DNA from: Calditrichia bacterium
GTDB taxonomy: Bacteria > Calditrichota > Calditrichia > RBG-13-44-9 > J075
Assembly: GCA_028284905.1 (NCBI GenBank)
Contig: JANQQU010000022.1
Span: 186,001 to 250,000, forward strand
Reading direction: 5' to 3'
DNA: 64,000 nucleotides
The notes beneath the pieces are model-generated. The model had not been told where the DNA came from and did not search any database. It saw nothing but the letters and a program-made list of their open reading frames with translations. The translations under genes were made by a program, and so were the position numbers. Below are positions 35,162 to 39,192 of this stretch, one piece after another; within the stretch, counting starts at the first letter, position 1, and the number at the start of each line of letters is the position of its first letter.

Positions 35162-35608
35162 TCAGGTTGATTTTTTCGGATTATATTCCAGGAGGAGAAC
35201 AAGGACGATACTTGCCAGCAATAGTGCAATATTGGAAAAAATATCGCCAATACCGATTTTTTCCGGGCCATCAACAGCAAAACAGCCGCAGCTGATTTTT
35301 AACCCTCTGAAATATGCCTGGCCGACAGCGACCAGAAAAATTAGCATAAGGGAGAGGTTGAGCCTGGCGGAAGATTTTAACCAAATACCAGCAAGTAGGA
35401 AAAGGCCCAATATAAGTTCCAGATAAGGGAGCCAGATAGCCACCCAGCGGGAGAGGCGCACACCTATTATCTGATAATTGAAAATAGTTTGGGCAAAGTC
35501 GATCGGATTCAAAATCTTGTCAATAGACGCATAAATCAGCGTGCCGGCAAAGAAGAGGCGTAAGCCGAGGATGATCCAGTCTTTTACTGTTGCGGGCATT
35601 TTTATCAT
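35162..35608 (-). CDS. MauE/DoxX-family membrane protein with CGC motif
   Basis: A 148-residue integral membrane protein with four predicted helices (about 9-27, 56-76, 83-100, 120-140). It matches the MauE/DoxX redox-associated group: LRLFFAGTLIYASIDKILNP at the first helix and a Cys-Gly-Cys motif, ISCGCF (Cys107/Cys109), before the last helix. Family members are tied to disulfide formation or quinone-linked electron transfer in the envelope. ATG 35608 follows the rhodanese TAA stop directly, with GGAG 6 bases upstream, so the genes are coupled. Last gene of the DUF1573-rhodanese-MauE operon. Confidence 0.82.
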   Translation of the reverse strand: MIKMPATVKDWIILGLRLFFAGTLIYASIDKILNPIDFAQTIFNYQIIGVRLSRWVAIWLPYLELILGLFLLAGIWLKSSARLNLSLMLIFLVAVGQAYFRGLKISCGCFAVDGPEKIGIGDIFSNIALLLASIVLVLLLEYNPKKST

Positions 35609-36067
35609 TTACAACTCCGTAGGAAATCCATTGCCGAGCCAGGCAGAAAGGCCACCCTCCAGAATTGCAACATTCTGAAATCCATATCCGATCATTTCAG
35701 CAGCAATCATCTCAGCTTCTTTGCATTCAGGATCAAAGCAATAAAGTATGTATTTCTTTTCCGGAGCTAAGTTTCTGAGGGAGTCCGGAGATTGAAAGTA
35801 GTCAAAAAGCGGCAATGAAATGGCACCGGCGATATGGTCAGCTTCAAACTCTTCCGCCGGACGAATGTCGATGAAGTATGCCTCTTCCTGCATTAAAGCG
35901 AGAAATGCGTCTTCAGGATTAATAGCAGTAACTGTGGCGGGTGTATTCGCACTTAAGGGAAGTAATAATTCCCAGCGAATACCCTGGGGATGCAGTTGGT
36001 TAATAAAAATGCCGCCCACAAGCGTAAGACTTAATATGAGCAGCATTTCTTTAATATGGTTCGTCAT
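35609..36067 (-). CDS. Membrane-anchored rhodanese-domain protein
   Basis: A 152-residue protein with an N-terminal membrane anchor (about 6-23) and a rhodanese domain (about 45-150) predicted to face the periplasm. Motifs are YFIDIRPAEEFEADHIAGAISLPL and the active-site loop YCFDPECKEA with Cys110 in the catalytic place and a second Cys115; the loop lacks the usual CxxGxR. GYGFQNVAILEGGLSAW is typical of the C-terminal part. It probably transfers sulfane sulfur or handles thiols in the envelope. It lies between DUF1573 and MauE genes, 13 bases and 0 bases apart. Confidence 0.85.
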   Translation of the reverse strand: MTNHIKEMLLILSLTLVGGIFINQLHPQGIRWELLLPLSANTPATVTAINPEDAFLALMQEEAYFIDIRPAEEFEADHIAGAISLPLFDYFQSPDSLRNLAPEKKYILYCFDPECKEAEMIAAEMIGYGFQNVAILEGGLSAWLGNGFPTEL

Positions 36068-36080
36068 ATAATATTTGCGA

Positions 36081-36782
36081 TTAACGGCTGCCGCTTACCG
36101 GGGAAACGACATTTACAAATACCGGAATCTTTTTCTCTTTCTCTTTTGAATGATTGGCTGAGATCAAAATTTGGGCATTATGCCGGCCAGGCTCGCTGGG
36201 AACTAGCTCCAGGCGAATCAAATGGGACTTACCCGCTGGAATTTCTACTGATTCCGGAACGACTTTCACTAAGGGGCTTTTGGTGTGTATGCTGACGATC
36301 TCAATCGCCTGGTCAGATTCATTCTCAATTTCAAAAAATTCAGTCAGCGTGGTATCTGCATTTTGCTCTACATTTTGAAAGTTGATAAACCGTGGAGAGA
36401 TGGAAATGTCCGTGACGACATTTGCTCTGATAAAAAAGGTCTGCTTGGGAGGCGTATTATCCTTAAAGTGAATGGTGATCGATTTTTGGATGACGCCGTT
36501 AAATTTTTCGGTATCAATCGTATAGGGAATCGATCCACTTTCTCCACTGGCATATACCAGTTGATCCGGTTCGATAGTAGTACAGCCACAACTCGGCTTG
36601 ATCTTTTCGATTTCTACAGACTGGCCACTATTATTTACGAAATCCAAAGTGCCTTCAATGATACCGCCTTTGGAGATTTTACCAACTTCAATAATTTTCG
36701 GATTTTTAAATTCAACTTCTTGTCCGAAAGCGCTAAGGCTTAATATCATCAAAATTGTGATTAAACTGGTCAATGTTTTCAT
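36081..36782 (-). CDS. Exported DUF1573-family protein
   Basis: A 233-residue secreted protein with a signal peptide (about 3-20, ending SAFGQ) and two Ig-like beta-sandwich segments. The first is a DUF1573 domain with the diagnostic IKPSCGCTTIEP motif (Cys65/Cys67); the second (about 125-225) is a similar fold without cysteines. DUF1573 proteins are common in FCB bacteria and have no settled function. First gene of a three-gene minus-strand operon with the rhodanese and MauE/DoxX genes. All three products carry paired cysteines, which suggests redox or sulfur handling (inference). Confidence 0.85.
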   Translation of the reverse strand: MKTLTSLITILMILSLSAFGQEVEFKNPKIIEVGKISKGGIIEGTLDFVNNSGQSVEIEKIKPSCGCTTIEPDQLVYASGESGSIPYTIDTEKFNGVIQKSITIHFKDNTPPKQTFFIRANVVTDISISPRFINFQNVEQNADTTLTEFFEIENESDQAIEIVSIHTKSPLVKVVPESVEIPAGKSHLIRLELVPSEPGRHNAQILISANHSKEKEKKIPVFVNVVSPVSGSR

Positions 36783-36794
36783 AAATTCCTCACA

Positions 36795-37763
36795 TTATTT
36801 TTTCAGTTTCTCGATGACATTCTTCATATCCCTGGGCAATGGTGCTGTAAATGTCATTGCTTCTTGACGGGCCGGATGAACAAAAGTTAATCTGTAAGCG
36901 TGAAGCGCCTGCCTGTCAATGGATTTTAACAAATATAATGCAAAATTTTTTTCAGATAAAGCAGAAAGACGTTTAATTTGCGACTTTCGTCCGCTATAAT
37001 CCGGATCTCCAAAAACCGGATGGTGAATGTAATTCATGTGTACGCGGATTTGGTGCGTACGTCCCGTTTTTAGAGAAATGTCTAGCAACGTTGTAAATTC
37101 AAAATTATCAGCAACTTCGTAATGGGTGATCGCATGTTTCCCATCCGGTGCGACAGTAAATTTTTTCCGGTCGGATTTGCTTCGGTTGATGAAAGTTTCG
37201 ATAACACCATTACGCTCTTTTGGAATTCCCCAGACCAATGTTTTATAATCACGGCTGGCAGATTTGTCTGCAAACTGCTGTTGCAGGTGAATATGGGTGC
37301 GATCATTTTTGGCAACAACCAGCAAGCCGGATGTGTTTTTATCTAACCGATGAACGATGCCCGGCCTTAATCTTCCTCCGACGCCAGACAGATCCTTGCA
37401 GTGATACATCAACGCATTTACCAAAGTTCCGGACTGAACGCCGGCACCGGGGTGAACTACCATACCCGCCGACTTATTCACCACCAAAAGATCGGAATCC
37501 TGATAGATGATCTCTAAAGGAATATCTTCCGGCTGAATATTGGTTTCCTGGGGGAGAGGCAGTTCAATTTCAACAACGTCATTCAGGTTCAGCCGGTAAG
37601 CGGATTTGACGATTTTACCATTGATGCGCACAAAGCCATCGCGGACTAGCTTTTGATAAAAGGATCGGGAATAATCTTCCAATTGACTGGCCAAAAAACG
37701 GTCCAGGCGTTGATTTGCGGAAGATTCATCAATCGTTAATTTGTATTTCTTCCCCGGCTGCAT
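36795..37763 (-). CDS. rluD: RluD-family 23S rRNA pseudouridine synthase
   Basis: A 322-residue pseudouridine synthase of the RluA/RluD class. An N-terminal S4 RNA-binding domain (about 15-75, QRLDRFLASQLEDYSRSFYQKLVRDGFVRINGK) precedes the catalytic domain, with HRLDKNTSGLLVVAKN containing the catalytic Asp. Later motifs include KTGRTHQIRVHMNYIHHPVFGD. RluD modifies helix 69 of 23S rRNA; RluC and RluA are close relatives, so target specificity is less sure. Met 37763 gives the family start and overlaps the lspA end by 35 bases. DUF1573 follows after 12 bases. Confidence 0.9.
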   Translation of the reverse strand: MQPGKKYKLTIDESSANQRLDRFLASQLEDYSRSFYQKLVRDGFVRINGKIVKSAYRLNLNDVVEIELPLPQETNIQPEDIPLEIIYQDSDLLVVNKSAGMVVHPGAGVQSGTLVNALMYHCKDLSGVGGRLRPGIVHRLDKNTSGLLVVAKNDRTHIHLQQQFADKSASRDYKTLVWGIPKERNGVIETFINRSKSDRKKFTVAPDGKHAITHYEVADNFEFTTLLDISLKTGRTHQIRVHMNYIHHPVFGDPDYSGRKSQIKRLSALSEKNFALYLLKSIDRQALHAYRLTFVHPARQEAMTFTAPLPRDMKNVIEKLKK

Positions 37764-38310
37764 TTTCCAATATCGGTTGTGAAGAGAGATCAAAAATTGT
37801 TATGATTAAAATGAGCAACATTCCAATAGTAATGGCAATATCTGCAATGTTAAATACCGGCCAGCGCGTCATTAAATATGCGGGATATTCCCAAAAGAAA
37901 AACTGCCCGCCACTGATCTGGATATCCATAAAATCGACATCCAAAAAGTCGACGACACTGCCTCGCCAAAAACGGTCGATCAGATTGCCGATAGCACCAC
38001 CCAGAATAACAGCAAAAGATAGCCGCAACAACGGATGTTGCCGCAGTCTGAATAAATAGTAAAAAATAATAAGTACTGCGAATATCGAAAGGGTATGAAA
38101 AAGGACTTTGTTATCCAACTCAATCCCAAAGGCCATGCCAGGATTTTCGACATAGGTCAGGCGGAAAAAATCCCCAATCAAGCTGACAGACCCAACTGGC
38201 TGCAAATAGTACATTGCCGCCAGTTTTGTTGCCTGATCTGCTGCGAGAATAAGCGCTATAACCCAGATTATATCTTTATATTTTCGCAGCGAGGCACCAA
38301 TATATTGCAT
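37729..38310 (-). CDS. lspA: LspA, prolipoprotein signal peptidase
   Basis: An aspartic membrane protease of 193 residues that removes lipoprotein signal peptides. Four membrane helices are apparent. The family motifs are present: ADQATKLAA (helix 1), YVENPGMAFGI, GGAIGNLIDR..GSVVDFLD with the first catalytic Asp, and WPVFNIADIAI with the second. The ATG shares one base with the stop codon of the DksA gene (TAATG), so translation is coupled. Upstream are two DksA-like genes and ileS. Confidence 0.95.
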   Translation of the reverse strand: MQYIGASLRKYKDIIWVIALILAADQATKLAAMYYLQPVGSVSLIGDFFRLTYVENPGMAFGIELDNKVLFHTLSIFAVLIIFYYLFRLRQHPLLRLSFAVILGGAIGNLIDRFWRGSVVDFLDVDFMDIQISGGQFFFWEYPAYLMTRWPVFNIADIAITIGMLLILIITIFDLSSQPILENAAGEEIQIND

Positions 38311-38690
38311 TAACGGCCGTATCTTTTTGATTCACTAATTTTACATGGTACGCAAGTACGTGCGGTAGGAACAATCTCCAAACGTTTTGCATCAATCTCT
38401 TCGTCACAAACACGGCACACGCCGAATTCCCCAAGTTCGATTCGCTGTAACGCCTGATGAATTTGTTTATGATATTTTTCTTCGCGGGATAAAAATAGAA
38501 AGGATTTCTCCCGTTCCATGGCGTCCGTGCCCTGATCTGCCATGTGATAGGCATACCCCGAATGATTCCCATAACTGTCACTGTAATTTGATTCCATTGT
38601 CACTTCGCGTAAGCGCTCAATTCTTTCGAGCACTTCTTCGCGTTTATCCAACAGCAAACTCTTGAAATAAGCCAGTTTCTCCTTATCCAT
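38310..38690 (-). CDS. DksA/TraR-family protein with intact C4 zinc finger
   Basis: A 126-residue DksA-like regulator that probably binds the RNA polymerase secondary channel. A coiled-coil N-terminal half (about 3-85: KEKLAYFKSLLLDKREEVLERIERLRE) contains YAYHMADQGTDAMEREKS. This includes the DxxDxA-like acidic tip region, here DQGTDAME. The C-terminal zinc finger is CRVCDEEI and RTCVPC, with all four Cys. Met 38690 has AAAGG 7 bases upstream; the ORF extends to 38747 without one. It lies between the Cys-poor paralogue and lspA. Confidence 0.88.
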   Translation of the reverse strand: MDKEKLAYFKSLLLDKREEVLERIERLREVTMESNYSDSYGNHSGYAYHMADQGTDAMEREKSFLFLSREEKYHKQIHQALQRIELGEFGVCRVCDEEIDAKRLEIVPTARTCVPCKISESKRYGR

Positions 38691-38757
38691 AATGAGGCCT
38701 TTCTCGTTTATATAACGGGTTAGTCGATGATCTTCCTGATCTATCACCGGAAATATA

Positions 38758-39192
38758 TCAAAAATTGCGTTTCTTCTGCTGCATTTTGGCTTCTACCGTT
38801 GTTTCGGTATGGGGGACTGCCTCCAACCTTTCTTTTGGAATTGGTTTACCAGAGATTTTACAAATACCGTAGGTTTTGTGTTCAACTCTTTTTAGGGCAC
38901 GATCCAGGTACCCAATGAATTTTTTCTGGCGTGAAATCATCAGATATAACATCTCGCGCTCCATGGCATCCGTGCCGGAATCGGCCATATGATATGTGTA
39001 GCCTGCTGCCTGTTCCTGGGCATCCTCCAGGCGACTACTCATCTGCTCGATCTCTTCCATTGCTTCGCTACGCTTCTTAAGAATCAATTGCCGGAAATAT
39101 TCCAGTTCTTCGTCCGTAAGGTAAGTTGACTTCGGAGTGTCTTGATCATTTCCGCTGTTCTTGGTAGATACCGAATTCTTTGAATCTGCCAT
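38758..39192 (-). CDS. DksA/TraR-family protein with degenerate zinc finger
   Basis: A 144-residue paralogue of the next gene. The coiled-coil and tip are similar (YTYHMADSGTDAMEREML). The finger region reads YGICKISGKPIPKERLEAVPHTET, so only one Cys is left of four. Cys-poor DksA forms of this kind are known (for example DksA2 of Pseudomonas) and are common in Bacteroidota, so this is not a decayed gene. A 25-residue polar N-terminal extension (Ser/Asn/Thr) precedes the domain. It lies 110 bases downstream of ileS. Confidence 0.87.
   Translation of the reverse strand: MADSKNSVSTKNSGNDQDTPKSTYLTDEELEYFRQLILKKRSEAMEEIEQMSSRLEDAQEQAAGYTYHMADSGTDAMEREMLYLMISRQKKFIGYLDRALKRVEHKTYGICKISGKPIPKERLEAVPHTETTVEAKMQQKKRNF

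Follow-up and report, generated by a model that had tools for sequence, protein, structure and literature searches.

We found that a three-gene arrangement, in which a DUF1573 gene precedes a rhodanese gene and a MauE/DoxX-family gene, recurs across distant bacteria; the association is real, more than chance, and wider than the sequence-only reading of this DNA had supposed. The best reading, which we hold with slightly less than even confidence, is that the rhodanese and MauE form a separable thiol/persulfide membrane module that would face the periplasm and to which DUF1573 has been repeatedly attached as a periplasmic partner. The starting example lies in the window, i.e., the whole 64,000-nucleotide stretch analyzed here, which comes from an 8.55 Mb Calditrichia genome. 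Its features are:

36795..37793, minus strand: RluD-type pseudouridine synthase gene, directly upstream of DUF1573 with a 12-base gap
36081..36782, minus strand: DUF1573 gene, 233 aa (PF07610, 83 bits)
36582..36590, minus strand: codons for Cys65-Gly66-Cys67 of DUF1573
35609..36067, minus strand: rhodanese-domain gene, 152 aa (PF00581, 61 bits), with an N-terminal membrane anchor and a YC-x4-C loop
35162..35608, minus strand: MauE/DoxX-family gene, 148 aa (PF07291, 89 bits; PF07681, 29.7 bits)
35282..35290, minus strand: codons for Cys107-Gly108-Cys109 of MauE

The open reading frames, Pfam scores and residues agree with the layout given in the sequence-only reading, including the intergenic gaps (13 bases between DUF1573 and rhodanese and 0 bases between rhodanese and MauE) and the cysteines, which are C65/C67 in DUF1573, C110/C115 in the rhodanese and C107/C109 in MauE and are the only ones that the three proteins contain. 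DUF1573 is built of a hydrophobic N-terminal segment (a probable signal peptide) and two Ig-like domains, the first of which carries PSCGCT, and the MauE/DoxX protein has four predicted membrane helices with an SCGCF motif in the loop after helix 3. The scores listed above exceed the Pfam gathering cut-offs for DUF1573 (26.1 bits), MauE (27 bits) and DoxX (23.6 bits) and the Pfam cut-off for rhodanese (22.2 bits); in the alignment, Cys110 coincides with the loop cysteine of rhodanese relatives. Three narrower NCBIfam families were not reached: DUF1573 scores 55.5 against the 100 bits of OS_HP2 (NF041425) and has a Cys codon at residue 65; the rhodanese scores 40 against the 115 bits of the rhodanese-related (seleno)protein NF041203, which is still its best NCBIfam match; and the BT_3928 family (NF045576) gives 28.5 against 250 bits. 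Structure prediction reached low confidence for both proteins modeled (pLDDT 57 for MauE from a two-sequence alignment and 47 for DUF1573 from a single sequence). By sequence, DUF1573 matches HYDIN/MSP-type Ig domains and 2qsv, mostly via domain 2, and the MauE profile search matched no solved structure.

Upstream of the RluD-type gene are lspA and, at 38310-39192 of the window, two dksA/TraR-like genes in tandem (names by sequence recognition). As DUF1573 starts only 12 bases behind an RluD-type gene that itself follows lspA and the dksA-like pair, the transcription unit appears to start further upstream, and the RluD-type gene is probably part of it; a promoter scan gave a result at chance level. 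MauE is followed by a 310-base gap and then by a response regulator and an MBL-fold gene on the same strand, so that the immediate neighbors of the MauE locus are the rhodanese, DUF1573, RluD-type, response regulator and MBL-fold genes. These include no mau structural genes or mauD, and a role in methylamine dehydrogenase maturation was thus not borne out. The genes flanking the operon include no CcdA, ResA, ResB or SOD; neither ResB nor VKOR turned up in the window genome, and its one DsbD-type protein is encoded away from the operon.

Within the phylum, almost every genome with a close relative of this MauE encodes it beside a membrane-anchored rhodanese. The full triad is present in six genomes of the same family and order (G000, G001, G004, G005, G012 and G014; families f1 and f3) and is split by contig ends in G006. 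Six others (G002, G003, G007, G009, G011 and G013) display the same DUF1573 behind the same rluD; next come the response regulator and/or MBL-fold genes, and neither a rhodanese nor a MauE gene lies between. In G010 DUF1573 is found in another context without the pair. An RluD-type gene is, then, a conserved neighbor of the window-type DUF1573 whether the rhodanese-MauE pair is present or absent, and the pair is a cassette gained or lost inside an otherwise stable block. Since DUF1573 retains both its motif and its locus in members of the order that lack the pair, it has a use of its own.

Beyond the phylum, a MauE profile search gave matches in 103 of 385 genomes. We examined 82 MauE neighborhoods, sampled by MauE score: a rhodanese lies upstream of MauE in 64, and DUF1573 stands in front of the rhodanese-MauE pair in 15, although seven of the loci had been given priority on account of a DUF1573 gene already known to lie close by. 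These 15 triads span ten families, two in the phylum and eight outside it (f31, f64, f72, f74, f110, f140, f149 with two genomes, and f164), and the gene order is thus not limited to the window genome. A fair count is provided by the 21 non-phylum genomes that hold both DUF1573-type and MauE matches: the two genes are adjacent in seven, against 0.2 expected by a generous estimate of chance (binomial p ~1e-9). On the MauE tree, which rests on a short alignment and leaves many forks open, the triads are scattered: 10-11 changes are required to explain them, and strong branch support makes at least four of these unavoidable, which indicates that the association formed or dissolved several times. 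This recurrence ties the uncharacterized DUF1573 to a rhodanese-MauE pair whose probable task is the handling of thiols or sulfur beyond the cytoplasm.

The three proteins differ in how firmly they hold their cysteines. MauE keeps its CGC in 79 of the 82 loci, including those without DUF1573 or a rhodanese nearby, the exceptions being one CAC and two cases in which the open frame departs or ends at the motif site. DUF1573 has Cys-x-Cys or its selenocysteine equivalent at this position in all 15 triads (CGC in 12, and UGC, CDC and CYC in one each), and its CGCT is invariant in the 13 aligned members of the order, seven of which lack the rhodanese-MauE pair at the site. Both motifs are therefore conserved together and among close homologs, as the earlier proposal of a thiol relay had called for. 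By comparison, among the 64 rhodanese domains partnered with MauE (not counting two incomplete second domains and one second domain that is part of a fusion), 52 have both cysteines of the loop, 12 have neither and none has a single one, an all-or-none pattern with a Fisher p < 1e-12 (run with 51 and 12, uncorrected for relatedness). The two rhodanese cysteines therefore appear to act as a unit, and the module survives without them; their losses amount to about seven changes on the MauE tree. Cys-less rhodaneses occur in 6 of the 15 triads. An apparent enrichment in triads (6/15 versus 6/49, Fisher p 0.025) was rejected, as it fails a tree-aware test, in which well-supported branches offer only three independent pairs. 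Judged by these sequences, the MauE CGC is the seemingly obligatory part of the module, with the rhodanese cysteines and DUF1573 as optional ones.

These counts cut into the relay as originally conceived. The suggestion of a shared thiol-relay or sulfur-carrier system is favored by the gene order, the motifs and the redox neighbors of relatives (see below), but with the rhodanese pair missing in 12 of 64 domains, six of them in triads, a relay running obligatorily through all three proteins is unlikely. The idea that a CGC recurring in two neighbors itself signals their association is weakened further, because each motif is bound to its own family irrespective of the other and the rhodanese cysteines are optional. 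This raises an alternative that we consider improbable, though worth weighing: the motifs could be ordinary features of their families that form structural disulfides or hold a metal, in which case the operon could reflect no more than a common need for envelope expression behind housekeeping genes. The persistence of each motif without partners and the constancy of DUF1573 behind rluD, cassette or not, are in line with it; however, it does not account for a three-gene order found in eight other families far above chance, and the occurrence of selenocysteine in place of the first DUF1573 cysteine speaks against an inert disulfide.

This selenocysteine replacement is seen as a TGA codon, in frame, that takes precisely the place of the first Cys in SCGCT, both in shorter DUF1573 proteins in other families of the same class and in one triad (L135 of genome G097), whose DUF1573 thus reads UGC. 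tRNA-Sec genes score above the cut-off in 27 of 40 genomes of the class. The window genome is among them (tRNA-Sec at G000:C9:97361-97453, 73 bits), although the DUF1573 of its triad has Cys at the site. A hairpin about 16-35 nt downstream of the UGA, as expected of a bacterial SECIS, forms individually in six of eight UGA contexts, and the hairpins of six sequences show paired changes (CTCC/GGAG, CTTC/GAAG and CTTGCC/GGCAAG); RNAalifold across all eight contexts gave no consensus. Stand-alone UGC versions with SECIS-like hairpins, away from MauE, are found at L097:4990-5403, L098:5037-5468, L100:5044-5454 and L104:4951-5349; such stand-alone DUF1573 selenoproteins occur in many genomes of the class, and L104 comes from outside it. 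DUF1573/OS_HP2 has itself been tabulated as a selenoprotein with UGC or UxC (PMC9312934, PMC13188914, PMC2398784). The window protein shares with these OS_HP2 selenoproteins the same domain and the same S-x-GCT position, but has Cys where they have Sec; its rhodanese likewise differs from the CxU-bearing NF041203 proteins in having Cys-x4-Cys. Selenocysteine at this site indicates that the first cysteine is probably chemically active in the Sec-bearing relatives, and we infer the same for the first cysteine of the window DUF1573.

In relatives, the genes next to the module suggest a role in thiol redox within the envelope, often in proximity to cytochrome c biology. The Sec-DUF1573 triad of G097 is preceded by CcdA and a WCGPC TlpA/ResA thioredoxin, a setting that, together with the Sec replacement, points to redox chemistry. 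ResB/CcsA genes lie upstream in L189 and in L009 (Chitinivibrionales; before a rhodanese-MauE pair), and a thioredoxin-like gene lies downstream of a rhodanese-less MauE in L193. Behind MauE in several genomes of the class and in G173 is an UshA/SoxB-like protein with CxxCH heme motifs, whose family is named UshA-like (seleno)protein in NCBIfam and which is followed by ResA in two cases. A conserved cluster of rhodanese, MauE, UshA-like heme protein (ENCLC/ENCIC) and ResA is displayed at L046:2184-4996 and L049:4112-6912, and a single frame of 610 aa at L045:5850-7682 runs from MauE into the UshA/SoxB-like multiheme protein behind it, through either a natural fusion or a missing stop. Other variants were also seen. 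At L055:4964-8154 a MauE gene is present in two tandem copies, and behind each copy a small secreted peptide (about 90 aa) containing Cys is encoded, an arrangement that resembles a RiPP-type or cysteine-rich peptide system. At L054:5947-6675 a MauE-type protein has CAC in place of the CGC and, at its N terminus, a GMKCGSC segment that looks like a heavy-metal domain.

A second alternative, to which we give about the same low probability as to ordinary family features, is a sulfane-sulfur carrier system, in which the rhodanese would load a persulfide, DUF1573 would carry it on Cys65 and MauE/DoxX would pass electrons to quinone. It likens DUF1573 to SoxYZ, as an Ig-like analog, and MauE/DoxX to the DoxDA thiosulfate:quinone oxidoreductase. 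The catalytic-type Cys110 of most rhodaneses, the DoxX homology of MauE and the SoxB/UshA-like heme protein adjoining rhodanese-MauE in several genomes are consistent with such a route. It is set back by the rhodanese cysteines being gone in those 12 domains, by the absence of recognized sox genes from the neighborhoods examined and by the likeness of the heme protein to SoxB, which is far under the SoxB cut-off. Least probable of all is the handling of Cu(I) or other soft metals by the Cys-x-Cys motifs of MauE and DUF1573, as in HvfX/DoxX-type copper-RiPP systems, for although the NCBIfam HvfX model gives a weak, sub-threshold match (7e-6) to one related MauE (L017) and the L054 protein has its metal-domain-like segment, the operon in the window is not flanked by any RiPP precursor or metal-resistance gene and Sec at the site would be unusual in copper storage.

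What appears to be the nearest studied precedent, which also lends some support to the sulfane-sulfur route, is the membrane-associated oxidoreductase complex of M. tuberculosis, made up of the DoxX protein Rv3005c, the rhodanese-type sulfurtransferase SseA and SodA (Nambi et al. 2015, described in PMC6930017, PMC7907618). Both systems combine a DoxX-family membrane protein with a rhodanese-type thiol enzyme, there in envelope thiol homeostasis; judged by the genes alone, ours differs in being one operon, with a CGC-bearing MauE branch, DUF1573 included and no adjoining SOD. MauE of the MauE/MauD pair in methylamine dehydrogenase maturation belongs to the same membrane protein family (PF07291), for which a role in disulfide formation has been speculated (PMC7794033), but the window protein is paired with a rhodanese in place of MauD, and mau structural genes do not adjoin it. 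Our literature search found no paper on a DoxX/MauE-rhodanese operon, and the literature searched for DUF1573 holds selenoprotein tables and transcriptomics only, with no assigned function.

Returning to the favored reading of a separable rhodanese-MauE module, we posit that its core is the widespread two-gene unit, in which a rhodanese anchored in the membrane is joined by the four-helix MauE/DoxX protein; the latter would present its nearly invariant Cys-Gly-Cys on the outer side of the membrane. Through thiol/disulfide or persulfide exchange, MauE would move electrons between the membrane and periplasmic partners, drawing on or feeding either the quinone pool or a cytoplasmic reductant. Rhodaneses with the Cys-x4-Cys pair would be redox- or persulfide-active partners of MauE, and those without it docking subunits only. 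The secreted, Ig-like DUF1573, with its Cys-x-Cys or selenocysteine-Gly-Cys, would be a recurrent periplasmic substrate or carrier. The topology, the physical contacts and the direction of electron or sulfur flow in this scheme are all putative.

A more specific version, which we regard as possible but rather unlikely, is that DUF1573 serves as a soluble Cys/Sec redox carrier of an undescribed, widespread membrane thiol/persulfide relay with rhodanese-MauE as its core. If true, this role would be the first function for DUF1573. The recurrence of the gene order in ten families, together with the MauE CGC and a DUF1573 cysteine replaceable by selenocysteine, offers a direct experimental handle on this family.
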